From a virus: a stretch of DNA of 64,000 nt. Each line of letters begins with the position of its first letter. The first letter of the stretch is position 1. Location: IMG/VR virus record IMGVR_UViG_3300046096_000916, positions 1 through 64,000 of that record; one strand, 5' to 3'. The notes beneath the pieces were generated by a model. The model made no database searches, was not told the DNA's origin, and saw only the letters and a list, made by a program, of their open reading frames with translations. Both the position numbers and the translations under genes were made by a program. Below, piece after piece: positions 4,330 to 30,859 of the stretch.

Positions 4330-4384
4330 AAGTACATTTTTATTTGTAGATTTATAATCTGATCATACCACAAATATATTACTT

Positions 4385-4659: not shown

Positions 4660-7287
4660 TTAAGATAACTTTTGTTTGAGTATCGAATAAACCTGATCAG
4701 GTGTAAGATTAGGGTTAGCTTCTAACATTAAAGCAATAACTCCAGAAACATAAGGAGCCGACATAGAAGTACCTGCCTTGTTCCCAAAATCATCAATTCC
4801 GATTGTACTTATACCTTCTGCACCAGCTGTTACGTAAGTCATATTACTATTTGAACCAGCTTTATTGCTAAAACCAGCTTGATATGCACCAACGGCGATC
4901 GCCAATCCATCTTGTGCAAAGGCGGCGGGATAAATAGGATTTATTTCCCCATAATTACCAGCGGAGGCTATAACTACAACACCTTTACTTTTCGCGTATT
5001 CTAAAGCTGTTTTTATGGAAGCTACACGACCACCCCCTAATGACATATTAATAATATCAGCACCGTTGTTTACTGCATAATAAATACTCTGTTCTACATT
5101 ATTCCAAGTTCTCAAGCCTTCAATAGCCATAATAGTAGAATTGTAAGCAACGCCAGTATTACCGATAGAATTATTCTCTGACCCAACCAAACCAATAACA
5201 TGAGTTCCATGACCACCATTTGAAGTGAATTGATTATTATTATTTACAAAATTCCAACCGTTAAGATCATCTACAAACCCATTATTATCATTATCTAAAC
5301 CATCGTTAGCAATTTCATTTTTATTTATCCAGATATTATCATCTAAGTCTGAATGTCTTATATTTATCTGATGATCTATTACCGCTACTATTACCCCTTT
5401 ACCAGTAATTCCTTTATTCCATACTTCTGGTACGTTTATTAAATCTAAATAGCTACCATTTAATCCTCCATAATTAGCCACATTCTCAAATAATGTTTTA
5501 TTTCCTAATGCTATATTTACTGCCTCGTTTGCATTTATTAATCCATAACCTGTATCTGAATTAAACGTTTTATTCCCTACATTTAATAATGGTTCTTCAG
5601 GTATTACTTCAATAATTGGTTGTGTTACATCTATTATTATTTTCCCTAATGAAGTATTTACTCCGTCTGATACTTCATAATTCAATATTTCTTGTCCTAC
5701 AAATGTATTTTTAGGGGAATAGATATATTCATTTCCTACCTTTGTTAAAATACCATTTAAAGGGTTTGTAATACTTTTTATACTCAATGGTTTATTTTCT
5801 GGATCACTATCATTCAATAAAGGATCAAAAGTAATTATTTTATCATTAGTAATAGTCAGTAAATCATCATTTACTGTAGGAGGTTTGTTTTCTATTACAT
5901 TAAAAGTTATAATTCCTCTTGCTGTGATATTCCCTTGTTGTAATCTATAAGACACCGTTTCCTGTCCTATAAAACCATCGTTCGGTTTATAAATCAGATT
6001 TACCCCGTCTTTTATTAATGCCCCATTCTTTGGCAAGTAATACGACCGTAAAGAGATATTTTCTCCTACATCATTTTCTAAGGGATTAAATATTACCCCT
6101 TTATTCATCTCCGTTATTATCAAATCTTCATTGGCTTTTATCCCTGATTGTTCCGACAATGTCGTTAAACTCATTTCACCTATTGTCATCTCTGGACTTT
6201 GTACACTAGGGAATGGAATATCTATTGTTACTTTTGCTGTAAATAATTCACCCGTTGTACTTTTTGTAGTATATTCAAAAATATCTTGCCCTACAAAACC
6301 ATCATTGGGTAAATATGAAAAAGTCTTTTTGTCAGCATCAAATGATAATGTTCCGTCTAACGGTTCTGAGATTGAATCAAAAGTTACTCCAGTATCATTA
6401 TTCAATAAGTCATTTACTGTAAAACGAGTGACTTCGTTCTGACTACCTACAAAAAAATCATCTTTGATTGAAGGTAATACTAAATTAGGATCAATATTCA
6501 AGTTTACATAAACTGTACTATAACCTCCTAATTCATCTGTAACAGTATAATCAAATCTTACAGTTCCTTTAAATCCAGCTTTCGGTGCTACTAATATCTC
6601 ATTATTTTCTACTTTTATATCTATAGGTGAAAATATTGTACTCACTCTATTATTGTAGTCAACAGAAACTATTTTTAATGGGTTATTTTCTCTATCTAAG
6701 TCATTTTTCAAAACATCTATCTTCACATATTCATTGCTTTTTCCTTTCTCTCTAAACCAATCAAATCTTCCATCTATTGATTGCTTCCCTTTTATTGTGA
6801 ATAAATCATCTTTAGCTATCGGAGCTGAATTATTTACATTCTGTAATTCTCTATTGACATAGAAAAAACTCGATCTGATAAATTTATCTTCAGTATCGTA
6901 GATACTGTATCTGCCCGTTAATGATTGTTGTTTTGATGTTACAAATAAACTATCTTCTGATACTCTATTTGAATATAACCCCGTGTCCGATTTCCCGTCA
7001 AATTCACTTATCGAAATACTTACTTTACCTACATTGATACCCTTAAGCTCATCATTTGCCAATAAGGCTTCTTTTGTTACTTCAAATGCTTCTAGTGATC
7101 CTACTGTGAATATATCTGGTCTCACTACTACTGTCTGCTCTCTTAACCCTTTCAATTCTTGCCCTATCCCCCCTGAACTAGGATTTAACACTCCATTAAA
7201 TTCTAGTTTTTTACTATCTTGTCCTATTCCTGTAAAACCCGTCTGTAATACTTGTGTACTTTTCTGTATTTCTGATTGAATATCCAT
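4660..7287 (-). CDS. Subtilisin-like serine protease with N-terminal Ig-like repeats
   Basis: 875 residues from the ATG at 7285-7287, chosen because AAGGG precedes it; an upstream TTG start would overlap the next gene. Residues ~150-590 hold four or five Ig/cadherin-like repeats with recurring Y.P..GF.G...F.Y. motifs. The S8 peptidase domain (~620-875) has a complete triad: D638 (VAVIDHQ), H693 (GGHGTHVIG) and S841 (GTSMSAP). A Ca-binding-like DGLDNDNNGFVDD precedes the histidine. No signal peptide is visible. It may be a virion-associated protease or a protein exported by a C-terminal or type I route; tail maturation is another option. Neighbours give no firm answer. Confidence 0.9.
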   Translation of the reverse strand: MDIQSEIQKSTQVLQTGFTGIGQDSKKLEFNGVLNPSSGGIGQELKGLREQTVVVRPDIFTVGSLEAFEVTKEALLANDELKGINVGKVSISISEFDGKSDTGLYSNRVSEDSLFVTSKQQSLTGRYSIYDTEDKFIRSSFFYVNRELQNVNNSAPIAKDDLFTIKGKQSIDGRFDWFREKGKSNEYVKIDVLKNDLDRENNPLKIVSVDYNNRVSTIFSPIDIKVENNEILVAPKAGFKGTVRFDYTVTDELGGYSTVYVNLNIDPNLVLPSIKDDFFVGSQNEVTRFTVNDLLNNDTGVTFDSISEPLDGTLSFDADKKTFSYLPNDGFVGQDIFEYTTKSTTGELFTAKVTIDIPFPSVQSPEMTIGEMSLTTLSEQSGIKANEDLIITEMNKGVIFNPLENDVGENISLRSYYLPKNGALIKDGVNLIYKPNDGFIGQETVSYRLQQGNITARGIITFNVIENKPPTVNDDLLTITNDKIITFDPLLNDSDPENKPLSIKSITNPLNGILTKVGNEYIYSPKNTFVGQEILNYEVSDGVNTSLGKIIIDVTQPIIEVIPEEPLLNVGNKTFNSDTGYGLINANEAVNIALGNKTLFENVANYGGLNGSYLDLINVPEVWNKGITGKGVIVAVIDHQINIRHSDLDDNIWINKNEIANDGLDNDNNGFVDDLNGWNFVNNNNQFTSNGGHGTHVIGLVGSENNSIGNTGVAYNSTIMAIEGLRTWNNVEQSIYYAVNNGADIINMSLGGGRVASIKTALEYAKSKGVVVIASAGNYGEINPIYPAAFAQDGLAIAVGAYQAGFSNKAGSNSNMTYVTAGAEGISTIGIDDFGNKAGTSMSAPYVSGVIALMLEANPNLTPDQVYSILKQKLS

Positions 7288-7300
7288 ATCTAATCCCTTT

Positions 7301-7588
7301 TTAATTTTGTTGTTTTGAGCCAAACCAACCAAGAGCGATAGAGCCTAACAAAAAAGAATATTCGTTGACATTATTAGGGCTAAATACCATCACAAGGATA
7401 AGCCCTAATAATAAACATAGAATTATAATCCCCATTGGTTTTGATTCCGCTTGTTTTACTGTTAGCCAACCCATGTAAGCATCTAGAGTAAGGAAAAAGT
7501 TATCGTTCAAATCATCTATTCTAAATATTAACCAATAGATATATGAACCGATTAATCCTAATACTAAATAGTGTGGCATTCCTTTCAT
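7301..7588 (-). CDS. Small membrane protein, possible holin
   Basis: 95 residues with three predicted membrane segments (about 6-22, 52-68 and 77-91) and a short polar C-terminus (GSKQQN). Size and topology match class I holins, which make the membrane hole for phage lysis, but there is no sequence motif and no endolysin next to it, so this is only a candidate. It lies directly upstream of the subtilase gene on the same strand. Confidence 0.55.
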   Translation of the reverse strand: MKGMPHYLVLGLIGSYIYWLIFRIDDLNDNFFLTLDAYMGWLTVKQAESKPMGIIILCLLLGLILVMVFSPNNVNEYSFLLGSIALGWFGSKQQN

Positions 7589-8760: not shown

Positions 8761-9993
8761 CTATGCAATATCAAAAAAAGACAACTGTCTAGGCTTACTG
8801 TTTCCTTCTTGCTTCATCGTAGTCTCAAGATGTCTCTTGAGTTGTTTTACTACTCCACAAGCTAACCTGCCCGAGCTGGGCATTATTTCTGAACGCTCAG
8901 GGATATTTATTCCTTCAAACCAGCTAAAAATATTTTTAGCTGCATTTAAATCTCTATCTTCTTTATGTCCACATTCTGGACACTCATATACTCGCTGTTT
9001 TAAGGGCATTTTATGCCTATGGGTTGTACAGCTTGAGCATATTTGACTACTTGGATAAAATCTATCTACTAAAATCAATTTACTTGAAAACTTTTGCGTT
9101 TTATACTCAAGTTGTCTTTTAAATTCATACATTCCACAATCAGCTATCGCTCCAGCGAGTTTATGGTTTTTCAAAAATGCTTTGATTGATAAATCCTCAA
9201 TCTTTATCTCGCTGTGGTTTTTGGCTAGATAAGTCGTGAGTTTATTAATCCCATCTTTACGAATATTAGATACTCTAGCGTGAAGTTTAGCTAATTTACG
9301 GACGGCTTTTGTGCGATTAGCTGATCCTTTTATTTTTCTACTTACTGCCCGTTGTAATTGCTTTAGCTTCTTTAACATTCTACGATAGGCTTTGGGATTT
9401 TCAAAAACCTTCCCGTTAGAACAAACAGCCAACTCTTTAATCCCTACATCAACACCCACAGACGGGCGATTTATGGGCATTTTAGGTAACTGTACATCAT
9501 GTTTTATAGAGATAAACCATTTATCGGCTTGTCTGCTAATTACGCAGTTATGTACAGCAGTTAAAGGTAATGGTTCGGCTAATCGTACCCAACCTATAGT
9601 TGGTAACTTTATGCGTTTACCGTCATTCTTAATCATTGGTTTAGCTATCGTTCCCGCTTCTAAGTAAAAAGAATCACATCGACCTTTTTTCTTAAAACGG
9701 GGAGCTTTACCTAACTTTTTAAAACAACGATCCCAAGCCGTACGTAAATTGGCGATCGCCTTCTGGGGTACATTTTTTGAAACGTCATAATACCATTTAT
9801 TTATTGGTTTAACTTCCGCCACTAATCGTTTATGTAAATCAAAAGCCGATGGTGTTTTTTCTCCATTTTTTAAGCATTCTTGAACAGTAGCACAAGCCCA
9901 GTTATAGGCGTGTCTTGCTGTACCTGATGCTTTTCTAAAAAGAGTAGATTGTTTATTGTTAGGTTTTAATTCAGTTTTAAAACTTAATAACAT
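8761..9993 (-). CDS. tnpB: TnpB-type RNA-guided nuclease (IS200/IS605 OrfB)
   Basis: 410 residues from the ATG at 9991-9993, which begins MLLSFKTELKPN as in TnpB relatives; an upstream TTG is less likely. The RuvC catalytic residues appear intact: D182 (VGVDVGIKEL), E266 (IKIEDLSIKAF) and aspartates in DRDLNAAKNI (346/348). A four-cysteine zinc ribbon (CSSC at 319-322, CPEC at 338-341) is present. TnpB proteins are omega-RNA-guided DNA nucleases that retain the element at its site. No tnpA transposase accompanies it, so it is a stand-alone IS1341-like element or a domesticated copy. Confidence 0.95.
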   Translation of the reverse strand: MLLSFKTELKPNNKQSTLFRKASGTARHAYNWACATVQECLKNGEKTPSAFDLHKRLVAEVKPINKWYYDVSKNVPQKAIANLRTAWDRCFKKLGKAPRFKKKGRCDSFYLEAGTIAKPMIKNDGKRIKLPTIGWVRLAEPLPLTAVHNCVISRQADKWFISIKHDVQLPKMPINRPSVGVDVGIKELAVCSNGKVFENPKAYRRMLKKLKQLQRAVSRKIKGSANRTKAVRKLAKLHARVSNIRKDGINKLTTYLAKNHSEIKIEDLSIKAFLKNHKLAGAIADCGMYEFKRQLEYKTQKFSSKLILVDRFYPSSQICSSCTTHRHKMPLKQRVYECPECGHKEDRDLNAAKNIFSWFEGINIPERSEIMPSSGRLACGVVKQLKRHLETTMKQEGNSKPRQLSFFDIA

Positions 9994-10106
9994 ATCAGTA
10001 GTAGTAAGATACAAAAATCATAGCATGTTTTAGGAGTAGTTTGAAGTTTTGTTGTGATTATTCTAGAGTTTATCCTAAGATTTGATAAGATATTAATTAA
10101 TTAAAT

Positions 10107-14924: not shown

Positions 14925-15314
14925 ATGAAAAAGTTAATTATAGCACTTAGTGCAATGGCGATCGCCTCTTTTAATTTTATAACTCCTGTATCTGCTGAAT
15001 ATCGCAGACAAGAATTTGAAGATAGTTTTGATTACGTTTTGGAAAAGTTTAAGCAAGGAATTTATATTGGCGATTATGAACAATTCAGTTTTGATACTCA
15101 ACAAGAATTTGCCAAACAAGTGTGTATTGAAGGTAATTTTGAAAAAGCATTAGATAATTTCAAGAAAACCAAATATAACTATTATGTCGCTTTAATAATA
15201 TTATTGAATCAAGATCGTTATGAAATTTACGCTTTCAAACAAAATCTAATAACAAAAATGGCAAAATATTGCCCACAGGATAAAATAATTTATCCTACAG
15301 TTTTAAAAAATTAA
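14925..15314 (+). CDS. Secreted hypothetical protein, 129 aa
   Basis: A clear Sec signal peptide: MKK, hydrophobic core and a likely cut after PVSA (residue 24). The mature part is helical, with two cysteines and FEKALDNFKKTKYNYYVALI resembling a TPR-like helix pair. A HIP1 site lies inside the signal peptide codons. Its end overlaps the tape measure end by 4 bp in convergent orientation. Role unknown; it would act in the periplasm. Confidence 0.65.
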   Translation: MKKLIIALSAMAIASFNFITPVSAEYRRQEFEDSFDYVLEKFKQGIYIGDYEQFSFDTQQEFAKQVCIEGNFEKALDNFKKTKYNYYVALIILLNQDRYEIYAFKQNLITKMAKYCPQDKIIYPTVLKN

Positions 15315-18300
15315 GTATATCTATTATCTTTTGTTTGAGCTATCTTTTGTTCTTGAGCAATAAGACTGGCAGACTTTCTAAAACTATTAACATCAGTTGC
15401 TTTGACTGTCACATAACTATTATTATTCACAACCATATTACTGTTAGATTTATTCATTGTATTTGTAGTTGGGTTGCCAATACTACCACCATTTAAGTAA
15501 TTAGGGATGTTACGATTATATTTATAATCAGTTTTTAAACTTTCCCACTCTCCCGACTTTTCTAAATATCTATAAAAATCAGCGTCTCCATTTTTCTGAC
15601 TTAATACTTGTTCATTGAGACTTACTACAATAGGAAGGGCATTTGCACCTTCTTTTTTCATTGCTTTACTAATACCCAACGATAAGTTAACCATTGATTC
15701 CAATTTATTTTTAACTGATCCACCTTTGGCAAAAGTATCAAGCTTAGGTATTTTCTGCCCGATACTACCGCCTTCTTTAAAGTTAGGTATCATTTCAGGT
15801 TTAACCTCTCCACCCGTCATAAAATTGAGAATTTTGGGTATTTTCTCAGTAATTATTCCTCCTTCTTTAAAGTTAGGTATATCTTGAGTTTTAATCTGAC
15901 CACCCTCTTTAAATGCTTTTAGATCAGGTGAAAAGCTACCAGTAGAAAAATCAATACCAGCTGGTGATGCAAAATCACCGAAAGTACTAGCCCCACTTAA
16001 ATCTAAACCAACACCCCCACCGATAGCACCGACTGCCATATTTAAGCCCGTCCCGATTAACTTCCCTAAAAAGCCTCCGCCTCCTTGACTACTACCACCG
16101 CTACTTATCATCGTGACTAAACTAATTAAACCTTGTTGTAAAGCTACTTGAGTGTCTGTTAAGATAGCGTCAATGTCACCGAAGCTAGATGATAAACCAG
16201 CAGTCAAAACATTAGTAGCGTCAGTAAAGTCTATCTTCATATCTTCACTGAAAGTTGCGTTTTCTAAATTAGCATAAGGGTTATAGATACCAATTTCAGA
16301 GTTAGGGTTATATAAAGTAGGCATTCCCCCCTTACCTATATCAGAGTATTGTTCCGATACTCCTGCCCCAGATTGTCTATTTAATGCTTCTAACATTAAA
16401 TTCAAAGTATTATTAACTCTAACTAATTCATTGATGTCGGGAGTATCCTCACTACTTAATAATGATTTAGATTTTTCATCTTGTCCGATATTCTCAGGTA
16501 ATAATCCTTTAAAGAATTTCCCTTTTATCCATTTCATCGCTTGATTATGAATCATCTCAACTGACATATTTAAGAAGAATTTACGGATGCTTTCTAAGAA
16601 ATCTTTAGCTATATCATTAAATGATTTTTGCCCTGTCATTAGAGTATCTAAACTTTCACCCAAAGCATTTTTGAATGGTTCATTTAGTGCCTTAGAAAAT
16701 AAGGTTGCCTCAAAAGTTATATCGGATAATTTTTCTTTATTTATCTCTTGTAATTTGCTTCTCAATGCTTCTAACTCTTTAATTTTCTCAGGCGTCCCCT
16801 CAAATTCCTTCATAAAGTCATCAAAAGATTTCATCATTTCTAACTGTCTTATTTGTTCTTCTAAGACGGCACTCTGAAATAATCCACTCATATCAAGAGG
16901 ATTTTTCTTATTTTCATACTCTGCTATTTGTTTGAGATAATCTGATAATCCTTTAACTTTTTCTAATGTTTGTTCATAATTGATTTTATACGCTAGACTT
17001 TGTAAATTTATCTTTTCACCTAATTCTACCTTCTGTTCCAATAATGAGATTTCTTCTCGTATTAGTTTAAGTTTTTCTCTAGCTGGGATTGTTTTATCAT
17101 TTATAACTCCTAGTAATCTCCCCCCTGCTTCTTCAGTTATTTTTCCTTCATTTTTTGCTTTCTCTACTTCTGCTTTTATATTGTTAATAGCTTCTTCTTC
17201 TTTTTTTACTCTTTCTTCAGGAGACAAATCTTTATCAGTAAACCCAAGATTAGTATCGATAGTTAATCGAAAATTCTCTAAACCTCTTTTCATATCTCTT
17301 ACTTTGTTTGTTAACTCATCAAATTGACGGGTTGCATCTTCCGCAAAAGTAAGATAACCTTTAGCATTAAGAGAAAATTCTTTAACCTGAGTATTTAGCC
17401 CGTAGAAAGTATCCTCCGCTTGACGGGTTGCATCGAATATTTGAGTAGCATAGTCGAATAGTTTAGCTTCATTCTCTAATTGAGTAGATTTTTGTTTTTG
17501 AATTTGATTTAGAGCTTCTAATTGATTTTTATAGACTTTTAATTGTTCTAAATCTATCCCTAATAATTGAGCTTCTTGTAATAACTCATTAAAACGACCC
17601 TCATCTTTTAATCGGATCAATTTAGCTAATTGATCAACACCTTCTTTATTATCAGAGAATTTTTGTTCTTTTACCAGTTGCTCAATTATAGAATTTGCAT
17701 CCACAAAATCTAAGACAGCGTCACCTGGTTGAGAAACCATACTAGGGTTATAACCAATTTTACTTATTTGATTCCATTTTGTTTGACCCCCTTGAATACC
17801 ATTAATACCATTTACATTAGGAAGGTTAAGTCCACCAGCTCCAGCTTGATTCATTAACTGTTGACTTTTCGGACTTTGATGGGCAAATTTAACAATAACG
17901 CCAGTAAGTAAATCTTCAAAATACGAAACACCACCATAACCACCAGCAACGCCAAAATCTACGGGTTTTAATCTGGATGTATCGACAGATAGAACCGTAC
18001 CTTCTAGTAGCCCAAAATCACGCCCTTTATGATTTGTTGATGCACCTGGTATTCCTGTATCTCTCGGTCCGTAATCTGAAGACGGTCGCATACTTGTTAG
18101 AGGTTTGCCATTTGCATAGATATATTTTTCGTATTCTTTAGGATTGAAATATGATCCATTTCTCTGAGCGGCAAGATGAAGATGAGGTCCACTTGCAGTC
18201 CCTTGATATTTTGTCCCGTCTTTCGGTCCAGCGACAATCGAAACTGGTACTATTTTATTTTGATTATTATTAGCAACAGGTTTGTTATTAGTATTTTGTG

Positions 18301-21300
18301 CTTGAACATTGTTATAGGCTTCTTTAATACCTACTGCAAATTGTTTTGACCATTTAGTTATTTCAGTAAAATCACCTGATTTAATGGCACGAAGGAACAT
18401 ATCAGAAACTTCTTTATCCATAGCACTTAATTCTAATAAAGTTCCGCCTCTTGTGGGGATAGTTAAGTCTTTTCTGGTCGAATCAAATTTATTTAATCCG
18501 TATTCATCTTGTAAAGCATTTGTTAAAGGATTTCGTTTACCTTTCTCTCCTATAATTACACCATTTTCTCCATTATTCGCATCTAAATGAATTTCTAAAG
18601 GAAAAGCATTTGACTTATTAGCCTGATTAATAAAATTCTCTGAACGTTTAATTCTATCTGTTTCTTTTGATTTGAACAACTGAGTAGGCACACCTAGATT
18701 TTTTAATTGTTCGACTAAGATGGGAGCTAATATTTCAAGTGCTACTGATTCTAAAGTTCTGCCATTAAGATTAAAACCGTTAGCGGTTCCGTTTGTTCCG
18801 CCTCCATTCGGCTCTTGATGACCTGCATTAATCAAAATAGATTTTTGATTATTTGAATTTCTTTTATTTAACACTGGTAACGTTTTAACAGCTTGTGCCA
18901 TTAACTCACTCGCAGGGAAATTAAGATCAATGCCATCTTTAGGTTTATTAATATCAATACCTTGATTTAACCAATTCATAGCCTTAGTATCTAATTTTAA
19001 ATCTGGTAGTTGTTGTTGACGTGGTAAGATACCACCCATATCAGATACTACATTAGGATTAAAATTAGATGCTATTAAGTTAGAAGTAGGTAGGTTAGAT
19101 TGTGGAAGGTTAGATTGGTTATTTTGTTTGTTTTTGTTGGGGAATAGAAAGGGTGCTAATTTGTCTCCTCGATATTTTTCATAAACCTCTCCATATTTTA
19201 GATTTTCTTCATTATAAATATCGAGATTCTTCCAAAGATAATCATAATTATTTTTCTCATCATATTTGATCTCGAGTAACTTTTTCTCGATCGCCTCGAA
19301 CAATAAATCTCTATCCTTTTTCTGTTGATCAAATATCCCCGTAATATTTTTAAGAGGATTTCTATTTTCTTTGGTTAATCTATCTATATCAGCTTTTGTA
19401 AAAGTGTTATTAGGTTGTTCTTTAATAAAACTATCTGTTGGTTTTGATTTTGATTGTGGTGTAATGACAGGAGTTGTTTGTCTTTTCTGTTCTACAAAAG
19501 GAGTTGCTATTTTATGATAAGGGCTAGTAGGATTATTATTATATTTTTGAGCTTCTTTAATCCTTTCTTCTACTAATTTAATTCTCCCAGTGTCTGTCGT
19601 AGTATTGGAGTTGAAATCTTTATGACTAATATTTTTAGTATCTTTATCTCCTAAGTCTTTGAGGAAACCAGTATCTTCTAAAAACCACCTGACGGTATTT
19701 TTCTTCTCACCATCTTTCATTGCTATAAAAGCAGATTTATCAATCTTGACCTCTACTATTTTATTTGTAGTTTTGTCATAGATTACTTGCAACACTTTAT
19801 TTAATGCGGCTTCAGAAACTCCATTAGCTTCACTTTTGCTTTGTTGGCTTCTAATTATTGAACTAGCAATTCCTAAAAGCCCTTGTCCATTTTTATTATC
19901 TTGTCCAGCTAATTTAGTTCGGAATAAATCCATGCCTGTTAAAGTATAGGTTGGGCTTGTAATAATGGGTGTAGTTTTGTCTCTATTTGCATTTCTACTC
20001 GAATTATTGTTATCCCCTGATGCTTTACCATTAACAGTAGGTTTAGCTTGGTTATTAGTAGTGTTAGTAACAGGTGGGTTGGCTGACCTTGCTTTAGCAT
20101 TGATTAGGGCTTCTTGTGAATAGGTTTGATATTCAGGGAAAGCTCTTTCTTTCATGCTAGGTCTTAAAAAGTTATTTAAGATATGATTTACCATTGCAGA
20201 TAAAGTTTTTTGTTGTTTGAAGTCATCTAAATTTTTGAAACCTTGCATCTCTTTAGATTCTTTCATGGCAAAATCTATTTGCTTTTCTATATCGTCAAAT
20301 ATGAAACCTGTCATAGGGGCATAAGCTAACATTGCCTCTTTTCTTCCCCCCGTTGAGGTTTGTTGATATAGCCCAGTAGCTTTTGAAGATGAATTTACAT
20401 TATAAGGATCGTTTGTAGATTCTTTCCTTGCTGTTCCTGCCCAAGCGGACGCTTGTTCAAGTGTCATACCATATTTTGTTGTCAGTATATGGATAATAAA
20501 GGCTTCTCTCTGTGCTACTGTTGTCACCTTGTCAACCGCACCTTTTACTGGATCGACTTTCAGCTTTCTATCAAATGTGAAATTACCTACTGAACTACCA
20601 TCCCCACTACCCGTATAACTTCCCCCACTCTCCATCTGCCCTTGATATTGTTCAACTGATTGCTTAACACTTTCAGCCAACTTAGATATATTGTTATGAA
20701 TATCAACATAATTAGCATTTATATTACCAATACTATCAGCTATACCCTTAAAGTTAACTCCCATTGTATTAGCTTGTAATACCATATCATCTGATTGATT
20801 TCTGATACCTCTCCAAGCTAAGGTTTGACTTTGTTGAAAATCATCAAATTGTCTAGTTAATTCAATTTCTTGAGCTGTTCTTTGACGTGCCAAATCAAAT
20901 ACTTGTTCTTCTAAACCTCTTATCTGTTTAGCAATACCAACCATTTCAGTGGCGATCGCCAATCGTTGTTCATCTAAAGTTAAAGTTTCATTTCTAACAT
21001 CAGTCTCACTAGTCTGGATACCTTCAAATAAAGTAATGAAATCAGCCAAGAAACCTTTTTGCCCGAATTCTAAACCAGCCCTTAACTTATTAATGCTGGT
21101 GCGTCTTGTTAATTCAGATGTAATCTTAGTAATTTCATTAGCGGTAGTGAGTAATTGAGTTTTTAGACTGGTGATTAAATCTTGATAAGATTCAACTAAA
21201 TCACGTTCACCTCGTTGATTTTGAATACTTGCATCTTCTAATCGAATACGCATATCATAAAGACTTCTAGCACGGTCTCTAAAGTAATCCCTAACAGTTA

Positions 21301-24300
21301 TATCAAGATCTTGTAAACTTCTGAGGAAACCACGCATATCAACAAATTGCTGTTTCCCTAAATCTTTTAAAGCTAATTGAGATGTTAACTCTTGTAACTT
21401 AGAATTTTCGTACTCATTGCGATTTTCTTGTCTTCTCTTTAGTGCAACAATAACATCTTGAGTTCCTTCGGGGGCTTTTTTCTCTACATCGTTAAGGGTA
21501 CTTAATTTCGCATCGGTTAATTTGGTAACGTTGTCTCCTAAAGCCCCAAATAAAGTTAACAGTGAGTCTGTAGCACGTTTATCAGTAGTTTCATTTATTA
21601 TCTTCGTACTTTCAGTATATTCAGCTTCTAATCTTTTTGTCTCTTTCTGTGCGTTAGTTAATTCTAATTCTGCATTTTTACGTTGATAACTAAGTGCGTC
21701 TGAATAGCCTGTACTGAGTTGATTCCCTACTATTCCTTTTTTATCTTGAGTAATTTCTTTTTGCAATAAGAATTTACTCGCTTCTACCCTTGAGGCGAAA
21801 CGGGATAATGTTTGAGTTAAAGTCAACATTCCTGTGCTACTATCTTGTAAAGCATCATTCATGTCTTCTATTTTCTTTTTAATTTCAGGGATAATCTTAT
21901 CTAATTCTGCGGAGACTATCGCAAAAGTTCCGCCAAAATCTGTCCCACTTTTCACTTTCTCATCAACAAAAAGTTTTTGATTTTCTAGGTTGGTTAATAT
22001 ATCCTGATAAGAAGTAGGATAAAATTGTTTATTTAAAGCTGTTAACTCAGCTGTTTTAATTTGATTTTCTTTTTTTAACTTTCCCATCGTCTCATTACTG
22101 TTCGGTAAGCCACTATCTTTTAACCCAGCTATTGTTATGGCATTAGCTAGAATATCAGCGTTTAGCTTACCAGCTTTTTCTAAATATTCTTTTTGACCCC
22201 CGTTATTTTGTTCATATCGGATGACCAACTCATATTCTTTTATCGTTTTATCAAAAGATCTTTGTAAAACAATTGCTTGACCGATACTATCTGTTTCTTT
22301 TTGACTAGCTTGTCCAAACCAACCACGACCAATATTATCTTTTTTATTTCCATCCATCCAAGCAAACATATTTCCAAACCAACCACGATCTATATTTGTA
22401 TTCCCCTCCTCATCCTTCTCTGGATTTTTCCCGTCTTTTTTATCTTGCTCAGCTTTCTGTGTTTTCGCTAATTCTCTGGTAGCTTTTTCCATGCGTTCTA
22501 ATCCAGCAGTGGCTTGGGCTGCTAAATCTTTGGTAGCCTCTAATCTAGTAAAGAGGTTTGAAACAAAGTCAACTACCATCATAATAGGGATCAATGGCAA
22601 GAATTTCATTAAAGTAACTTTAAAACTATTTACTAATGTCGTTAAAGTAGTAAATAGTCCTTTAGCTCCTTTTGCTATATTTGCAAACAAACCGAAACTA
22701 CTCGCTTGTAGGGACGTTAACCCGGCTTCTGTACTTATACGGAAATCAAACCATAACAATTTTAGGTTATTCATGAACAAGGCAAAAGCTGACATTATAT
22801 TAGTTAGGGCTACACGGATAGTTGCTTCGATCACTGGTGCGAAAAACAAAGTTGTTAATGCAATTCCAGCCTTAACAATTTCTTCGGTAAATTGTATAAA
22901 TAGATTAATAGCAGCAGTAACTCCAGTTATTAATGGTTTTGTAAAATCTATCATCCCAGACCCTAAAGCTATTTTGAGATTTTCAATTGCATTCTCTAAT
23001 TGAGTTAATTTTACAGCCCCTGTATCTAAAGCCCCCTCCATAAAAGGATCAGCTTCTTTATTCATCTGAGTAGTAAACTTAGGTAAAAATTCATCAGAAA
23101 AGATTTTACCTGCAGCTACCTCTGACATTAACTGTGTAGTGGTCATATTCATAGCACGAGCGGCTAGGGGTAACGCACCGGGTAACGCTTCACCTAATTG
23201 ACCATTTAACTCTTCCATCGAAACTTTACCCTTGTTTGCAATCTGAGTTAAAGCTACTAATGCACGAGAAGTCCCTTCCGCATTTACTCCCCTCACTGTC
23301 AATCCTTTTTGAATACCCTCAAACATAGGGAGGGCGGAGTCTTCCATCTGTACACCTTGAAGCCCTAAAGCAAACTGTGCGAATTGTTGGGTAGTGGTTT
23401 TGACACTTTGACCTAGTTTATCTGTTTGTTTTCTAATCTGTTCTAATTGTGTAATCCCTGTTACCTGTCCAAAAGTAAATCTAAATTGATTTGTCTGTGA
23501 TTCGAAATCTAAGGCCGCTTGAAAAGTCGTTCTGAATAACTCTTGTACTTTCTGGACTGTAGCTTGTACTGTTGCTGTGATAGCTTTGCCCAATAAGTTT
23601 AATCCGATAGGAGCTACAAAGGCTAGAACCCCTATTTGTAAACCTATTCTCTTAAATACATTTTCCAATGATTGTAGAAAAGGATATTTCGACTTTAAAT
23701 TGTCTAATTGATTTCCTAAAGAAGTAAAAACAGTACCAGCTAGTTTTTTCATCTCAGTAAGGACGGTTTTAAATTTATCAAAGGCTGAAACTGTATCAGG
23801 TTCAATTACTGGTACTTCAGTTTCATAAATACTATTTATATCTGCTAAACTTCCGCTTTGTTGAATCTCAAATACTTTCTTGCGAGAAGTCTCTTTAATA
23901 TTTTTTTGTTCTCCTAGTGATGTGGTCAATTTAGATTCAGCCGACTCTAAGTTACTTATCTCAGCTAATCTTCGTTGTTCTAATCTGATAATCTCATTTA
24001 AGTCTTGTCTTTCTTTTGCCTTAGCTTGGTTTTTTAATTTAGTGTATCTATTTTCGACATTTTCTTTTTTCTTCCCTATCGATTGTAATTTATTTTCGAT
24101 AGCCAATATCTCTTGTGTACTCGCCTCATAAATACTTAGATTAGAAGTAATACTATTAGCTGTTTCAATGGTCGATTGTTTCAGCTCTTCATTGGCAATT
24201 TGTATTTTCTCTGCTAAACTATCTAACCCATCCGTTAACGTATCAAATCCTCTTAAATATTCTGCTACTTGGGCTTCTGTATCAAAGTCACCCAAGAGGA

Positions 24301-27300
24301 TAGCTACCTCTCCTAATTCTTTTTTATATTTACTTTCTACATTTTTAATATCCTGTAGTTGTTTTGCTCTCATTTTAAGATAAGATTTATAGCCATCTTC
24401 TAAAGTTTTAGCTTCAGTTATTTTATTTTGTGCTATTAATCTTTTATAGTCACTATCATATTTAGCTTTGACCGATTTAATATCAGTAATAAAATTTGTT
24501 TTATTTGCTACATTTTCAGTACGAGAAGATTGAATATCATCAACAGTCGCTTTTTTATCATAAATATTAACTAAAGTCCTAGTAGCCTGTTGTTTATTTT
24601 CTTCGAAAGTTGGCATTTGAAAATTATCAAAGTCTAATGCAACTCTAGCCTCTTTCCCTACTAATGCTAATTTTTCTATTTGTGCGATAACTGATTCAGG
24701 TACTTTCAAATTCCGTAATGACTCGCTGTCAAGGTTTAATATATTCACCATTGAATCTTGAAAACTATCAGCCATTGTCTCAAAATCATTAAATCCTTTC
24801 GTAGCATCGACAATAAAAGAATTAAGATTTCTACGAGCTTCTACAGGTAAAGTATTTAATGCTTTTTGGACGTTAGGATTAACTTTAAAGTTTTGGGTGA
24901 GATTCCCCAATGTCACTTTATATCTGTACATTAATTTTTCTACTTCTTGAAAATATTTTACGATCGCCCTTTTATCTAAAGTCCCGTCTTGTTGTTTAAA
25001 AGCTGGAGGCGTTGCCAATTTTGCTGCAATCTCTTTTTTAATTGCAGACATTTCTTTTATCTCTTGCCTTACTTGTTTAAAAGATGCGTTTTCTCTTCTA
25101 TTTAAGACACCTCCGAAACTATTTATGACTGAGTCTACATCAGTAGCCCCCATGATCTTTAATCTATTAAATCCAGTGTTTAGTTTCTCAATAGCTTTAT
25201 CTACATCAGCCGTATCTTTTAGATTAATCCCAAGTAGATCATATAATTTAACTTCCCCACGATCAATCATATCATCTGCAAAATTTCCTAATTTCGCTTT
25301 CAAATTATTAGCTAAATCATTCCCAAAATCTAGTCCTGTTATTTTTACCCCATTCAAAACATCGGTCAAGTTTCTAAAACTTCTCTCGGATTCCTTAGTC
25401 ATTCCTTGCATAGAAACGCCTACAGACTTAGTGGTTTCCTTCCATCTATTTCTAATATCTTGAGTTAAACCAGGTGAACCTTCCGCTAGATTATGTAGTA
25501 TTTTATAACCCTCTGTTTTCGAGACTTTAGACATCTCTCTAACAACTTTTTTAAAATAGTTGCCAGTTTCGCCCCAACGGTCATCTATGTTCTCTATTTC
25601 AGAATGCAATTCGGCAAAAGGATTTTCCCCTCCATTCAAATTAATAGCGTCCCACTCAGATTCGATCTCCGCAATTACTCCTTTCAAAGACGCAGGATTT
25701 AATTCGATCTTATCTATCAATAAAGGCAATAAATCACTATTTGACTGAATACTAGTTAAAGGAACTTCAGCTATTTTCGCTATATTTCTAGTTCCTTTTC
25801 TATCAAGGCTCAGTATTGCTTTATTCAAGGCAACAAATAATTTTCTGAAATAAATTTCTTCTTGTTTAGTATCATCTTTTCCCGTCTTATACTCTCCTTT
25901 TTCAGATAAAGCGGGGCTGTCATTGTCAGGATTAGAAAAATCTATATTTTGAGTATCGATTGATTTTTCTTTTGATTTTAGGAAAGGAATACTATTTAAT
26001 TTTTCTTTTAAATTATTGAATAGATTAGATAGACCTTGTAACGATTTATTTATTATTTCCCCAGTCGTTTGTACTTTATCCTCTAGTAGAGTGAAAATAC
26101 CAGAAAATAATGTTGTAGAAGTCTCGATACCTGATCTGATTCCTGCAACGCTTTTAGTAAAGAATAAGATTGTTTTATTTATATTTTTGATAAGTGTAAC
26201 AATAAAGGTATTGTTATTAAGTTTATCCATTATTTTGAACTTATCTTCAAGATTAGCTAATTCTTCACTGATTGTATCAGCCAACGTAATAGCAACTTCT
26301 TTGATTACATTGAACAAAACAGGACCTAATAACAAAGAACCTTGCTTGATAAAAATATAAGAAGATTTAGTTAATAATTTGACTATTCTAGCCCAAGATT
26401 TATCACTATCTTTAAAAGCAATATTAAGATTTTTGGCTGAAGTTTCGATCACATTTTCAAAACTGAAATCAAATGTACTTATCTTAGTAGCTAAAGCACT
26501 CATTTTAGCTTTTATCTCGATAAGATTCGAATATATCTCATCGGAGATCGCCATAATTTCAGTCAAAGGATTTGTTATTTTCTCTAAAATATTATTAATA
26601 TTACGGAATAATTCAACAATATTGATAGACACTAACGTTTGAAATTCGTCTATATTTTCTTTTATTGTTGTTTTATTTTGTGTTATTGCATTTGCCAGAT
26701 CAATACTATCAATAAAAGATTTGAAAAAGATTTTATATTTTCTGATCTGACTAATTACAAAACCATAAAACGTCACCAATGTTTTATGGACAACATTGAG
26801 TGATTCTTGGTATTTTATCTTTTGTAGCTCAGTATTGATCCCAGAAAATAATTTATCTATTGCTTCATTCATTTTATTAATAGCCGTGCTAAATACGCTA
26901 TTAAGATCAAATGAATTTCTTTTCACTACTGTACTTTTATCTTGATTATCTTCACTTACAATTGTTTCATCATTTATTTTTGTAGTTTTATTATCTACAC
27001 TTTCAGGAATAGTTAGACTATCATTTAATGATTTAAAGATAGCTTTATAACTTTTGATTTGAGTAATTATGTGACCATAAAAAGACTGTAGAGTTTTATT
27101 TATGACCAGTAAAGGTTTTTTAAATTCTATTTTTTGTAGTTCCGTATTAATACCAGTAAATAGTTTATTGATACTTAAACTTATTTGTTTAATCGTCTTA
27201 CTCAATACACTATTAATATCAAATGAATTTACCTTAGTTTCCTTACTTTCATCTTGAGTATTCTCTTTAACATTCTCCTCAATAATATTTTTTGTAGCTA

Positions 27301-30300
27301 CTTGTTTACTTTCAGTAGTCACATTTTCAGAAATGGTTAGGCTATCACTAAATGATTTAAAGATAGCTTTATAACTTTTTACTTGAGTAATTATGTGACC
27401 ATAAAAAGACTGTAGAGTTTTATTTATGACCAGTAAAGGTTTTTTAAATTCTATTTTTTGTAGTTCCGTATTAATACCAGTAAATAGTTTATTGATACTT
27501 AAACTTATTTGTTTAATCGTCTTACTCAATACACTATTAATATCAAATGAATTTACCTTAGTTTCCTTACTTTCATCTTGAGTATTCTCTTTAACATTCT
27601 CCTCAATAATATTTTTTGTAGCTACTTGTTTACTTTCAGTAGTCACATTTTCAGAAATGGTTAGGCTATCACTAAATGATTTAAAGATAGCTTTATAACT
27701 TTTTACTTGAGTAATTATGTGACCATAAAAAGACTGTAGAGTTTTATTTATGACCAGTAAAGGTTTTTTAAATTCTATTTTTTGTAGTTCCGTATTAATA
27801 CCAGTAAATAGTTTATTGATACTTAGACTTATTTGTTTAATCGTCTTACTCAATACACTATTGAGATCAAATGATTTCAATATATCTAATTTCGTATTTA
27901 TTTCTCCTTTTATTCCCTCGAAATCTGGCAACTCTGGTAATTCTATTTTGTTAGTAATATCTTCTTTTACTGCAGTAGCATTCTCTCCAATCTTATTTTT
28001 AATAGCGTTCGCTTTGTTTCCTATCGAATCAGTAAAACTCCCTAATAGACTTTTACTTGCATCTGCTAAATTATTAAATTTAATTCCTTTTATTCTAGCC
28101 TCAATATCTGTTACTATTTTTCCTATATTCACAAAAGCATCAGAAAAAGATTTCGCTAAAAATCCACCTATTTTTTTTGATGGTGCTACTAATCTAATCA
28201 TTTGTTTAATCAGATAGTCAGCAGTTTTTAGCCAATGTTTTCTTATTTTCTCAGTCGGACCAGGTGAATTTTCAGCTATATTATGTGTGAGATTGTCACC
28301 AACATTTTCGGAGACAGCTAAAAGTCTATTTAATGTCGCTACAATATCATCTCCTGCCTCAGCCCATTTCCCACTAGTCTCCTCTGCTGATTCTTCTAAG
28401 CCCTCACTATTTACATTAGAAGACTTTAATCTAGTAGAAGTCACTCCCCCACTTAAATCTGGGGCGTAATCTTTATGTCTATCCAATGCTAATTTTTCCC
28501 AGTTTTTTACTAAAAAACTGGCTATTCCGTTCAATTTCTCAAAATCATCTGCTTCTGTTAAATTAGATATTATATCTTGCAGCTCGGATCGTACAGTATT
28601 TACCGGTTTAGCTTTATTCCCTTGTTTAAAATCTAATCCCAAGTCAAGCGAAGCGTTCAGAAGACTTATTCCCCCTTCTACTGCTGTTTTTTCTCCGACT
28701 CTCCCCCCACCTTTTTGCCTCAATAAATTAACAATAGGGATTAAAGCCATACCAATTGTTTTAGCCGTTATGGGGGCTACTAAAGGGATATTATTTTCAG
28801 CCAAAGGATTGTTCAGATTATTCTCATTTTCTGTAGTACCTATAATTCCTTGTCCACTAATTAGATTATTTTCATTTTCTGTAGTGCCTACAATGCCTTG
28901 ATCACTAAGAAGAGTATTCGTCTGTTTTAATTCTAATAAAATATTTTGTAGTATATCTTCCGTTGTAATAGGGGTATCTTTTTCTACTTGTTTAAATAAA
29001 TCTTTAAAAGATATCCCCGCTATTTTTTCCGAAAACTTTAGCATTTTGTCAAAAAGATTTGTCTGCCCCGCCCGAGTAAAAATTGACCCTAGCTTCCCAG
29101 TAGGGTCAACCGTATTTTGTCGCCTCTGCCCAAACAATGGATGAGGCGCACCCTGTCCGAAAGCCTGTTCTCTAAACTTATTCATTCTTCCCCATTGAGA
29201 AGCAATGAAGACCCCTAATGGGTCTGTTTGAGTATAGTTAATAGCTTTTTCTTTTACTTTGGTAGCTAAAACTGGGAACGATTTTGTGACAGAAGCCGCA
29301 ATAAATCCTAATCGTGATCCTTGATCTTGTTTCTCTTGGTTTGTTTTACCACCTAAAACCCGATCATAAGTTTTCTTGAAAGGAATAATCGTCAAGTTCG
29401 CAAAAAGGCTACCGGCTTGAGATAATGCTCCTGCAAACATTTTGGCTGGACTTGTGACGATTTTATTTGCAGTGCCTACTAACGATTTCCCTATTGCCCT
29501 CCCGAAAGTTACCGCTGTACCTTGTATTATTACTCTCTTTAATTCTTTTAGTGTATGATGAATCAATTCGGCCGTTTTCACTTCACGGTAAGTACTAAAA
29601 AGTACTGAATCTAATTTAGATAAATGTTTGTTAGCGGTACTAAAAAAAGAGGAAAACATCCCGTTCTGTTCTGCTAAACTACCTGTTAAAGCTTCTAAAC
29701 TTCTCCCCATTGTGAATGAACCTAATAGCAATCCTTCTAATTGTTTTGTAGGTAATTTCTCGGCGATTAAAGTTTCAGTACCTCTTTCTGCGATACGTGG
29801 CACTATTTTTTTAGCTATGCCATTCGCTTTTTCTCCCAGTAATACTTCAGCTCCTTTTTCTGCTAATTTAGGCCCCATTTTCAAAATCAAATATTCCCCT
29901 AATGACTGCCCGATATAACCTGTTACCCCTTTCCAGATAGAGCCAAATAAACTAGATCTATTTGCTTTTGCAAATTTATCACTAGAAATTCCGAAGCTAT
30001 TAACTGCCTTTTGAAAAAACCCGATAACATTTAATTGTCTTGCAGATAATTTATGTTGAGTATTGAAAAACATTGTTAATTCTTTTTTCATTACCCCAGT
30101 CACTACGGTGGGAACTAACATCGAAGAGGCTAGGATTTTTTTATCTTCTTTTTTTGCTTCTTCTTTAGGCTTTGTATTTTTTTCATTATCAGCCGTTAGT
30201 AAATCAGGTTCTGATAATTCAGCGACAATATCGGCGATCGCATCGACTTGTGTCAAGCTTTTAACTTCTTTATCAATTCTCTCTAATGGTTTTACTTCTA

Positions 30301-30859
30301 TTTCTTGTGTCAAAGCAATAGGTATCTCAAATTTATTTTTTGCATCTGACAATTCAGATTCTAAGTCTTGTAACGTTACACCTGCACCGCCATTATCTGT
30401 ATTTGGACGTAACGGTTTTTTTGCCATGTGTCCATTCAGATTATCCCAGTGTTGTTGCTTCAAATCAAGATGTTTATTTAATTCTTCTAATGGCTTGTGA
30501 TCTACTACTGGCAAAATAACTTTATTATTTAAAGCCTCATACTGAGCCATGATAGTAGATAGATCAACTGCTGGATTTCCTATATTCGTCTCAAGTCGTG
30601 GTTGCTCTATCGTTTCATTTCTCTTCGTATTTATTGTGATCTCATTATCTTGTTTTTGAATATCAGACAAGGTCTTGTTAAAAGCCGTATCATCGACAGC
30701 TAATTTTGTTTTAAGTATAGGTGGCGTTATTTTTTTTGTATCTAATTTTATTGTAGTATCAATTTTCTGTAACACTTTTTTCATCTCAGCTACCTGTTGA
30801 TTGAACTGTGTTACATCTAACTTCGCCGTCCATTGTACGCTACCAACATCTAATACCAC
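15311..30859 (-). CDS. Giant tail tape measure protein with three murein hydrolase domains
   Basis: 5182 residues from a GTG preceded by GAGGTG. Residues ~2440-2600 match the tape-measure N-terminal core (QLEQIRKQTDKLGQSV, SMEELNGQLGEALPGALPLA). Hydrophobic stretches lie near 2405, 2670 and 2755. Domains further on: tail-lysozyme-like (~3450-3570, ARKEST and ATGLYQQTSTGGR), Amidase_3 (~4003-4185, INAGHQEP, EIHLDAN, LLELSAMD) and M23-like parts (~4218-4325) in permuted order. Three near-identical and one divergent 108-residue repeats lie at ~996-1420. The rest is long helix and coiled coil; the C-terminus is Gly-rich. The tape measure sets tail length and is ejected into the cell envelope at infection. 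It follows the chaperone genes, as in siphoviruses. Confidence 0.95.
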   Translation of the reverse strand: MVLDVGSVQWTAKLDVTQFNQQVAEMKKVLQKIDTTIKLDTKKITPPILKTKLAVDDTAFNKTLSDIQKQDNEITINTKRNETIEQPRLETNIGNPAVDLSTIMAQYEALNNKVILPVVDHKPLEELNKHLDLKQQHWDNLNGHMAKKPLRPNTDNGGAGVTLQDLESELSDAKNKFEIPIALTQEIEVKPLERIDKEVKSLTQVDAIADIVAELSEPDLLTADNEKNTKPKEEAKKEDKKILASSMLVPTVVTGVMKKELTMFFNTQHKLSARQLNVIGFFQKAVNSFGISSDKFAKANRSSLFGSIWKGVTGYIGQSLGEYLILKMGPKLAEKGAEVLLGEKANGIAKKIVPRIAERGTETLIAEKLPTKQLEGLLLGSFTMGRSLEALTGSLAEQNGMFSSFFSTANKHLSKLDSVLFSTYREVKTAELIHHTLKELKRVIIQGTAVTFGRAIGKSLVGTANKIVTSPAKMFAGALSQAGSLFANLTIIPFKKTYDRVLGGKTNQEKQDQGSRLGFIAASVTKSFPVLATKVKEKAINYTQTDPLGVFIASQWGRMNKFREQAFGQGAPHPLFGQRRQNTVDPTGKLGSIFTRAGQTNLFDKMLKFSEKIAGISFKDLFKQVEKDTPITTEDILQNILLELKQTNTLLSDQGIVGTTENENNLISGQGIIGTTENENNLNNPLAENNIPLVAPITAKTIGMALIPIVNLLRQKGGGRVGEKTAVEGGISLLNASLDLGLDFKQGNKAKPVNTVRSELQDIISNLTEADDFEKLNGIASFLVKNWEKLALDRHKDYAPDLSGGVTSTRLKSSNVNSEGLEESAEETSGKWAEAGDDIVATLNRLLAVSENVGDNLTHNIAENSPGPTEKIRKHWLKTADYLIKQMIRLVAPSKKIGGFLAKSFSDAFVNIGKIVTDIEARIKGIKFNNLADASKSLLGSFTDSIGNKANAIKNKIGENATAVKEDITNKIELPELPDFEGIKGEINTKLDILKSFDLNSVLSKTIKQISLSINKLFTGINTELQKIEFKKPLLVINKTLQSFYGHIITQVKSYKAIFKSFSDSLTISENVTTESKQVATKNIIEENVKENTQDESKETKVNSFDINSVLSKTIKQISLSINKLFTGINTELQKIEFKKPLLVINKTLQSFYGHIITQVKSYKAIFKSFSDSLTISENVTTESKQVATKNIIEENVKENTQDESKETKVNSFDINSVLSKTIKQISLSINKLFTGINTELQKIEFKKPLLVINKTLQSFYGHIITQIKSYKAIFKSLNDSLTIPESVDNKTTKINDETIVSEDNQDKSTVVKRNSFDLNSVFSTAINKMNEAIDKLFSGINTELQKIKYQESLNVVHKTLVTFYGFVISQIRKYKIFFKSFIDSIDLANAITQNKTTIKENIDEFQTLVSINIVELFRNINNILEKITNPLTEIMAISDEIYSNLIEIKAKMSALATKISTFDFSFENVIETSAKNLNIAFKDSDKSWARIVKLLTKSSYIFIKQGSLLLGPVLFNVIKEVAITLADTISEELANLEDKFKIMDKLNNNTFIVTLIKNINKTILFFTKSVAGIRSGIETSTTLFSGIFTLLEDKVQTTGEIINKSLQGLSNLFNNLKEKLNSIPFLKSKEKSIDTQNIDFSNPDNDSPALSEKGEYKTGKDDTKQEEIYFRKLFVALNKAILSLDRKGTRNIAKIAEVPLTSIQSNSDLLPLLIDKIELNPASLKGVIAEIESEWDAINLNGGENPFAELHSEIENIDDRWGETGNYFKKVVREMSKVSKTEGYKILHNLAEGSPGLTQDIRNRWKETTKSVGVSMQGMTKESERSFRNLTDVLNGVKITGLDFGNDLANNLKAKLGNFADDMIDRGEVKLYDLLGINLKDTADVDKAIEKLNTGFNRLKIMGATDVDSVINSFGGVLNRRENASFKQVRQEIKEMSAIKKEIAAKLATPPAFKQQDGTLDKRAIVKYFQEVEKLMYRYKVTLGNLTQNFKVNPNVQKALNTLPVEARRNLNSFIVDATKGFNDFETMADSFQDSMVNILNLDSESLRNLKVPESVIAQIEKLALVGKEARVALDFDNFQMPTFEENKQQATRTLVNIYDKKATVDDIQSSRTENVANKTNFITDIKSVKAKYDSDYKRLIAQNKITEAKTLEDGYKSYLKMRAKQLQDIKNVESKYKKELGEVAILLGDFDTEAQVAEYLRGFDTLTDGLDSLAEKIQIANEELKQSTIETANSITSNLSIYEASTQEILAIENKLQSIGKKKENVENRYTKLKNQAKAKERQDLNEIIRLEQRRLAEISNLESAESKLTTSLGEQKNIKETSRKKVFEIQQSGSLADINSIYETEVPVIEPDTVSAFDKFKTVLTEMKKLAGTVFTSLGNQLDNLKSKYPFLQSLENVFKRIGLQIGVLAFVAPIGLNLLGKAITATVQATVQKVQELFRTTFQAALDFESQTNQFRFTFGQVTGITQLEQIRKQTDKLGQSVKTTTQQFAQFALGLQGVQMEDSALPMFEGIQKGLTVRGVNAEGTSRALVALTQIANKGKVSMEELNGQLGEALPGALPLAARAMNMTTTQLMSEVAAGKIFSDEFLPKFTTQMNKEADPFMEGALDTGAVKLTQLENAIENLKIALGSGMIDFTKPLITGVTAAINLFIQFTEEIVKAGIALTTLFFAPVIEATIRVALTNIMSAFALFMNNLKLLWFDFRISTEAGLTSLQASSFGLFANIAKGAKGLFTTLTTLVNSFKVTLMKFLPLIPIMMVVDFVSNLFTRLEATKDLAAQATAGLERMEKATRELAKTQKAEQDKKDGKNPEKDEEGNTNIDRGWFGNMFAWMDGNKKDNIGRGWFGQASQKETDSIGQAIVLQRSFDKTIKEYELVIRYEQNNGGQKEYLEKAGKLNADILANAITIAGLKDSGLPNSNETMGKLKKENQIKTAELTALNKQFYPTSYQDILTNLENQKLFVDEKVKSGTDFGGTFAIVSAELDKIIPEIKKKIEDMNDALQDSSTGMLTLTQTLSRFASRVEASKFLLQKEITQDKKGIVGNQLSTGYSDALSYQRKNAELELTNAQKETKRLEAEYTESTKIINETTDKRATDSLLTLFGALGDNVTKLTDAKLSTLNDVEKKAPEGTQDVIVALKRRQENRNEYENSKLQELTSQLALKDLGKQQFVDMRGFLRSLQDLDITVRDYFRDRARSLYDMRIRLEDASIQNQRGERDLVESYQDLITSLKTQLLTTANEITKITSELTRRTSINKLRAGLEFGQKGFLADFITLFEGIQTSETDVRNETLTLDEQRLAIATEMVGIAKQIRGLEEQVFDLARQRTAQEIELTRQFDDFQQSQTLAWRGIRNQSDDMVLQANTMGVNFKGIADSIGNINANYVDIHNNISKLAESVKQSVEQYQGQMESGGSYTGSGDGSSVGNFTFDRKLKVDPVKGAVDKVTTVAQREAFIIHILTTKYGMTLEQASAWAGTARKESTNDPYNVNSSSKATGLYQQTSTGGRKEAMLAYAPMTGFIFDDIEKQIDFAMKESKEMQGFKNLDDFKQQKTLSAMVNHILNNFLRPSMKERAFPEYQTYSQEALINAKARSANPPVTNTTNNQAKPTVNGKASGDNNNSSRNANRDKTTPIITSPTYTLTGMDLFRTKLAGQDNKNGQGLLGIASSIIRSQQSKSEANGVSEAALNKVLQVIYDKTTNKIVEVKIDKSAFIAMKDGEKKNTVRWFLEDTGFLKDLGDKDTKNISHKDFNSNTTTDTGRIKLVEERIKEAQKYNNNPTSPYHKIATPFVEQKRQTTPVITPQSKSKPTDSFIKEQPNNTFTKADIDRLTKENRNPLKNITGIFDQQKKDRDLLFEAIEKKLLEIKYDEKNNYDYLWKNLDIYNEENLKYGEVYEKYRGDKLAPFLFPNKNKQNNQSNLPQSNLPTSNLIASNFNPNVVSDMGGILPRQQQLPDLKLDTKAMNWLNQGIDINKPKDGIDLNFPASELMAQAVKTLPVLNKRNSNNQKSILINAGHQEPNGGGTNGTANGFNLNGRTLESVALEILAPILVEQLKNLGVPTQLFKSKETDRIKRSENFINQANKSNAFPLEIHLDANNGENGVIIGEKGKRNPLTNALQDEYGLNKFDSTRKDLTIPTRGGTLLELSAMDKEVSDMFLRAIKSGDFTEITKWSKQFAVGIKEAYNNVQAQNTNNKPVANNNQNKIVPVSIVAGPKDGTKYQGTASGPHLHLAAQRNGSYFNPKEYEKYIYANGKPLTSMRPSSDYGPRDTGIPGASTNHKGRDFGLLEGTVLSVDTSRLKPVDFGVAGGYGGVSYFEDLLTGVIVKFAHQSPKSQQLMNQAGAGGLNLPNVNGINGIQGGQTKWNQISKIGYNPSMVSQPGDAVLDFVDANSIIEQLVKEQKFSDNKEGVDQLAKLIRLKDEGRFNELLQEAQLLGIDLEQLKVYKNQLEALNQIQKQKSTQLENEAKLFDYATQIFDATRQAEDTFYGLNTQVKEFSLNAKGYLTFAEDATRQFDELTNKVRDMKRGLENFRLTIDTNLGFTDKDLSPEERVKKEEEAINNIKAEVEKAKNEGKITEEAGGRLLGVINDKTIPAREKLKLIREEISLLEQKVELGEKINLQSLAYKINYEQTLEKVKGLSDYLKQIAEYENKKNPLDMSGLFQSAVLEEQIRQLEMMKSFDDFMKEFEGTPEKIKELEALRSKLQEINKEKLSDITFEATLFSKALNEPFKNALGESLDTLMTGQKSFNDIAKDFLESIRKFFLNMSVEMIHNQAMKWIKGKFFKGLLPENIGQDEKSKSLLSSEDTPDINELVRVNNTLNLMLEALNRQSGAGVSEQYSDIGKGGMPTLYNPNSEIGIYNPYANLENATFSEDMKIDFTDATNVLTAGLSSSFGDIDAILTDTQVALQQGLISLVTMISSGGSSQGGGGFLGKLIGTGLNMAVGAIGGGVGLDLSGASTFGDFASPAGIDFSTGSFSPDLKAFKEGGQIKTQDIPNFKEGGIITEKIPKILNFMTGGEVKPEMIPNFKEGGSIGQKIPKLDTFAKGGSVKNKLESMVNLSLGISKAMKKEGANALPIVVSLNEQVLSQKNGDADFYRYLEKSGEWESLKTDYKYNRNIPNYLNGGSIGNPTTNTMNKSNSNMVVNNNSYVTVKATDVNSFRKSASLIAQEQKIAQTKDNRYT
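26590..27874 (-). repeat. Tandem 108-codon repeats in the tape measure gene
   Basis: Units start at about 27874, 27550 and 27226 (324-bp period) with a diverged fourth from 26914 (312 bp further). Units one and two are almost identical in DNA, including silent positions, so the duplication is recent. Each unit encodes SVLSKTIKQISLSINKLF and then a linker with TTESKQVATKNIIEENVKEN in the first two. Confidence 0.9.

Follow-up and report, generated by a model that had tools for sequence, protein, structure and literature searches.

The window analysed here is a stretch of 64,000 nucleotides from a virus (IMG/VR record IMGVR_UViG_3300046096_000916, positions 1 to 64,000). Its minus strand carries a tape-measure open reading frame (ORF) with several recognizable domains, the last of which is very probably a circularly permuted M23 peptidase domain (Table 1). 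Membership of the encoded protein among phage tape measures was supported by family matches (TMP_3 and the tape-measure PHROGs phrog_9807 and phrog_2335), by the great length of the ORF and by its tailed-phage genome, with terminase and portal genes also found in the window. The terminase is closest to those of Nodularia phages (39.5%), which makes a cyanobacterial host likely, and the virus as read from its sequence is a probable siphophage of cyanobacteria. A large serine recombinase (46987-48375, minus strand) suggests a temperate lifestyle. The minus strand also encodes a subtilase (S8) with several bacterial Ig/cadherin-like repeats (4660-7332), here in a phage genome, and an OrfB/TnpB-like transposon protein with a Cas12f1-like TNB domain (8761-10014).

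Table 1. Features of the tape-measure ORF, in window coordinates; residues are those of the encoded protein.
Feature	Position	Strand	Basis
Tape-measure ORF	15311..30859	minus	5182 aa, GTG start; TMP_3 E=2.9e-19 and tape-measure PHROGs
TMP_3 tape-measure region, residues 2447-2628	22976..23521	minus	Pfam PF20155, 70 bits
Phage_lysozyme2 (tail lysozyme), residues 3455-3583	20111..20497	minus	PF18013, 45.9 bits vs cut-off 28.2
Amidase_3-like domain, residues 4008-4103 by Pfam	18551..18838	minus	PF01520, 19.5 bits, below cut-off 27
Probable circularly permuted M23 domain, residues ~4203-4340	17840..18253	minus	AlphaFold elements 17-154, colinear relatives, rotation scan
GPHLHLAA, residues 4224-4231, canonical C-terminal motif, now first	18167..18190	minus	
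Junction PKEYEKYIYANGKPL, canonical C-terminus joined to canonical N-terminus	18098..18142	minus	relatives' alignment, rotation scan
NHKGRDFG, residues 4276-4283, canonical N-terminal zinc motif, now second	18011..18034	minus	
FAHQ, residues 4325-4328	17876..17887	minus	

Three successive wall-hydrolase-type domains, a lysozyme, an amidase and the permuted M23, thus lie in one tape measure (17840-20497). The lysozyme domain contains RKES at residue 3478. The Amidase_3-like domain likely extends to ~4150, and H4013, E4036, H4091 and E4143 are in place at its motif positions; by the roles usual in the family we take these to be its putative zinc-binding and catalytic residues. It is established that tape measures can bear wall-cutting domains, lytic transglycosylase domains being one case (PMC10194240). 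Elsewhere in the same ORF (26997-27874), an in-frame tandem repeat of 324 bp (108 aa; 2.7 copies, 98% identity) points to a recent duplication that might change tail length.

All three M23 motifs fall within the one uninterrupted minus-strand ORF, and each was found once in the 5182-residue protein. The window domain has HxGxD, xH and GPHLH in common with the Peptidase M23 family (PF01551; LytM, lysostaphin, ShyA, EnpA), yet the canonical order, in which HxxxD precedes HxH, is swapped. The initial annotation had read the order in this way, with SGPHLHLAA first and NHKGRDFG and FAHQ after it, and the exact positions bear this out; its residue numbers belonged to the right motifs at values 2-5 too low, and its DNA coordinates covered the motifs but slightly missed the start of the domain, which reaches ~18253. 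Between the first two motifs, PKEYEKY begins at residue 4240 and SDYGPR occupies residues 4261-4266. None of the five M23 active-site residues is missing (H4277/D4281, H4327 and H4226/H4228). In LytM, zinc is bound by His210, Asp214 and His293, and His260 and His291 are catalytic (PMC4594094). By sequence correspondence, H4277, D4281 and H4228 would be equivalent to the ligands His210, Asp214 and His293, and H4327 and H4226 to the catalytic His260 and His291.

We identified relatives with the same swapped order by tblastn against phage records. Acinetobacter phage tape measures align without a break across the junction (39% identity over 124 residues, E = 8e-14), as do Moraxella phage tail proteins. 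With the Moraxella sequence as query, Synechococcus phage S-EIV1 was recovered, in which the permuted domain opens a protein of 248 aa, starting at the initiator Met, and queries with S-EIV1 and the alignment led to dozens of aquatic viral contigs with the permuted domain. When viral contigs were scanned with just the window sequence, no near relative turned up under the patterns used. A profile built from six seeds gave 217 full-length matches in the loci examined, from which ~56 non-redundant permuted domains were left once near-copies and four false rows had been removed (L152, L165, L167 and L176, first taken as permuted and found to be canonical or misaligned). These domains span Acinetobacter and Moraxella (pro)phage tape measures and stand-alone proteins of aquatic phages, S-EIV1 included, and provide the further proteins in swapped order whose existence the initial annotation had raised. 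Throughout the permuted group, GxHL[HD] comes before HxGxD and this before xH, in one open frame with an alignable junction. Four active-site positions, those of H4226, H4277, D4281 and H4327 in the window, do not vary among the accepted permuted rows that reach the respective column, counted with the four canonical false rows set aside and cut-off rows excepted. The arrangement in the window, as judged from these sequences, should not be put down to chance, because it aligns unbroken and in the same order with the Acinetobacter tape measures and because four of its positions are invariant.

These relatives also bear on whether the swapped motifs are leftover halves of different M23 copies, as the initial annotation had considered; in the form weighed here, the copies would have been tandem and the halves would not form one site. 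A classical route to a permutation is to duplicate a domain in tandem and then lose the outer halves, so a tandem stage may plausibly have come in between. Against such a remnant, no second M23 match, whole or half, was found in the protein or in the 67-kb virus record, and both halves are kept together in every accepted permuted row. In 116 of the 213 counted matches, small ORFs carry the domain at their N-terminus and open, at or close to the initiator Met, with the permuted half, so that there is no upstream copy to leave a half behind; another 95 are large ORFs, many of them near-copies from Acinetobacter prophages. Together with the single compact domain predicted by AlphaFold (below), this makes leftover half-domains very improbable. 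The swapped order is a real rearrangement that recurs in many phages, not decay.

Circular permutation predicts a specific behaviour under rotation, and this was observed. The unrotated profile of the permuted family gave two swapped matches in all 36 canonical M23 proteins, whereas the profile rotated at the linker gave a single match in 36/36, with a mean span of 129 instead of 68 and a mean best score of 46.8 instead of 39.0 bits. When the cut was moved stepwise, score and span peaked at NGKPLTSM/MRPSSDYG, at the end of the very linker singled out by the initial annotation, and cuts at other places lowered the score to as little as 20 bits. Two unrelated fragments would not yield this pattern. 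The profile and its rotation thus establish sequence homology to canonical M23 members over the whole domain. Aligned to two M23 enzymes of solved structure, 3slu and 6muk, the profile likewise falls into two swapped pieces.

The Pfam M23 model agreed in direction. In its native form the window sequence matched the model in fragments; rotation extended the match from profile positions 75-96 to 2-96, with scores of 14.1-14.6 bits, native or rotated, that do not reach the curated cut-off of 28.7 and are too low to count alone. The Moraxella relative rose from 26.8 bits to 33.8, above the cut-off, and the Acinetobacter relative from 21.4 to 27.0, while the S-EIV1 protein had no Pfam match, native or rotated. 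Matches to LD_cluster2 (SLOG) at 12-14 bits were below cut-off and were rejected as chance.

The fold was predicted with AlphaFold, using 54 natural sequences for the window domain. Instead of two separate, incomplete lobes, the model is one compact domain (pLDDT 83.9, pTM 0.78; 104 of 167 residues at >=90), and the Acinetobacter relative gave the same strand order (pLDDT 81.8, pTM 0.78). Read from the junction onward and then from the start, the elements follow what we take to be the M23 order. In structure comparison by VIA-align, rows 1-8 for the Acinetobacter relative were all M23 enzymes, lysostaphin, LytM, EnpA, ShyA and LytU among them (Z 5.7-3.9, next unrelated 3.8). For the window model, ShyA, StM23 and lysostaphin were rows 1-3 at a modest Z of ~5 (5.0-4.8; lectins 4.5), in effect tied, to within 1 Z, with the rows of unrelated lectins and PH domains. 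The alignments cover ~90 residues, about what one would expect when a sequential alignment meets a permuted chain. Foldseek against the PDB returned only noise, with nothing at E <= 0.001; a sequential aligner would be expected to do so here, and the outcome does not count in favour of the fold.

A search of a viral fold library matched the window model to a structural protein of cyanophage S-TIM5 (E = 5e-7), a further permuted case. S-TIM5 DNA 107679-108050 encodes IIGWVGYSGES..GAHLHMEIRASGG..SEHGSRNPARPNHTGVD..IFLAHL, which is permuted and has all five residues (GAHLH, HTGVD and LAHL). The protein, annotated 'virion structural protein and packaging' (H6WFX6), differs from the window in its junction, SDFDPYITVGGKKPSQW, and its surroundings; it was found by fold only, the sequence-profile search of the S-TIM5 record having given no match. 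We regard it as an out-of-sample prediction that was passed, although the UniProt entry is tied to this ORF through its content, not through an accession.

Taken with the rotation scan and the small stand-alone relatives, the compact model supports the permuted fold that the initial annotation had offered as one option, and the window domain is in all likelihood an M23 (LytM/lysostaphin) peptidase fold that has genuinely been circularly permuted. In such a domain PKEYEKYIYANGKPL would link the old C-terminus to the old N-terminus, and the loop after the strand ending in [YF]xH, which reads VKxGD-V-xxGQxIG in canonical enzymes, would hold the new termini. Homology, conservation and topology lead us to infer that the five residues converge on one zinc: at a single predicted site H4277, D4281 and H4228 would hold the metal, and H4327 and H4226 would activate water.

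Whether the permutation arose once was addressed with a tree of rotated domains. The window domain fell among canonical M23 sequences, a weakly supported placement (78/74) on a branch of 2.43, as would be the case if permutation had occurred more than once and the window and S-EIV1/Acinetobacter domains were convergent; a single permuted clade was nevertheless not rejected (AU p = 0.46), and the tree does not decide between one event and several. The window and Acinetobacter domains have the cut point and the junction AxGKPL...SSxYGPR in common, which favours one origin for these two, and we consider repeated permutation rather unlikely.

The relatives differ in setting and in detail. The Acinetobacter Vieuvirus-type and Moraxella Mcat domains have the permuted order and a similar junction (AxGKPLTS) inside tape-measure or tail proteins that are annotated merely as such; they differ from the window in reading HLD instead of HLH, at ~26-39% identity. 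The S-EIV1 'peptidase M23 family' protein (AHV82231) and its aquatic relatives, permuted as in the window, are instead stand-alone proteins of ~220-270 aa with HLD and a longer junction. The S-EIV1 gene is flanked on one side by a head-protein-like gene and on the other by a tape-measure/lysozyme-like gene, a neighbourhood that fits a virion-associated role. Outside phages, permuted copies look rare. Matches at E <= 1e-8 were present in 38 of 299 sampled Pseudomonadota genomes, and the fetched loci were canonical or without recognised order except for one Acinetobacter prophage tape measure, whose genome was the centre of the 299-genome sample. Among 195 genomes of the order of that Acinetobacter genome, its own match was the sole one at E <= 1e-15.

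The likely role of the window domain is that of a virion-borne peptidoglycan endopeptidase. The tape measure would exit the tail tube ahead of the DNA, and the domain, with the preceding lysozyme and amidase domains, would cut peptidoglycan cross-links at the point of DNA entry; we infer its zinc binding, catalysis, timing and role along these lines. With a permuted M23 behind lysozyme- and amidase-type domains, one protein could attack three kinds of peptidoglycan bond.

Activity is less certain than fold. The second His of HxH is replaced by Asp in 52 of 60 aligned rows and retained by the window together with a small number of aquatic sequences, so the activity of the family cannot be assumed. 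Besides the window, the few relatives that keep this His are rows L251, L252, L254 and L255 and the S-TIM5 domain (L266). The permuted fold might therefore have lost catalysis and serve as a peptidoglycan-binding or structural tail module, a loss for which the degenerate LytM domains of EnvC/NlpD are a known parallel and to which the Asp in most relatives and the very long branch of the window in the tree would both be suited. Yet none of the five residues is lost in the window, relatives that change the His nearly always have a metal-capable Asp and not a random residue, the other four positions are invariant, and the adjoining lysozyme and amidase domains have their motif residues in place. 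A non-catalytic module is accordingly the less probable reading, at perhaps a chance in four, and from its sequence the window domain is reasonably likely to be an active endopeptidase.

A permuted M23 is apparently a so far undescribed variant: in the open-licence literature we found no description of a permuted M23, lysostaphin or tape-measure domain of this kind, which does not in itself prove absence. A precedent for a peptidoglycan-hydrolase fold with catalytic residues in swapped order is given by the papain-like NlpC/P60 (YaeF/LRAT) enzymes that are circularly permuted (Anantharaman and Aravind 2003, as cited by PMC6403190); these differ in belonging to an unrelated cysteine-peptidase fold.

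These findings have several implications. First, a branch that sits in tape measures and virion proteins and is fragmented or missed by family models means that wall-cutting functions of many phages are under-annotated. Second, the permuted domains may form a widespread, distinct M23 branch that serves phages as a virion-borne wall-cutter, mostly with a His-Asp-Asp site and with the window and S-TIM5 domains as His-keeping members, a picture for and against which we see about equal weight. Third, the Asp in place of His at the third zinc position of most members raises a question of metal choice and activity. Fourth, if permutation did arise repeatedly, insertion into long tail proteins may favour the permuted form. 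Lastly, these domains are a natural test of the tolerance of the LytM fold for new termini.
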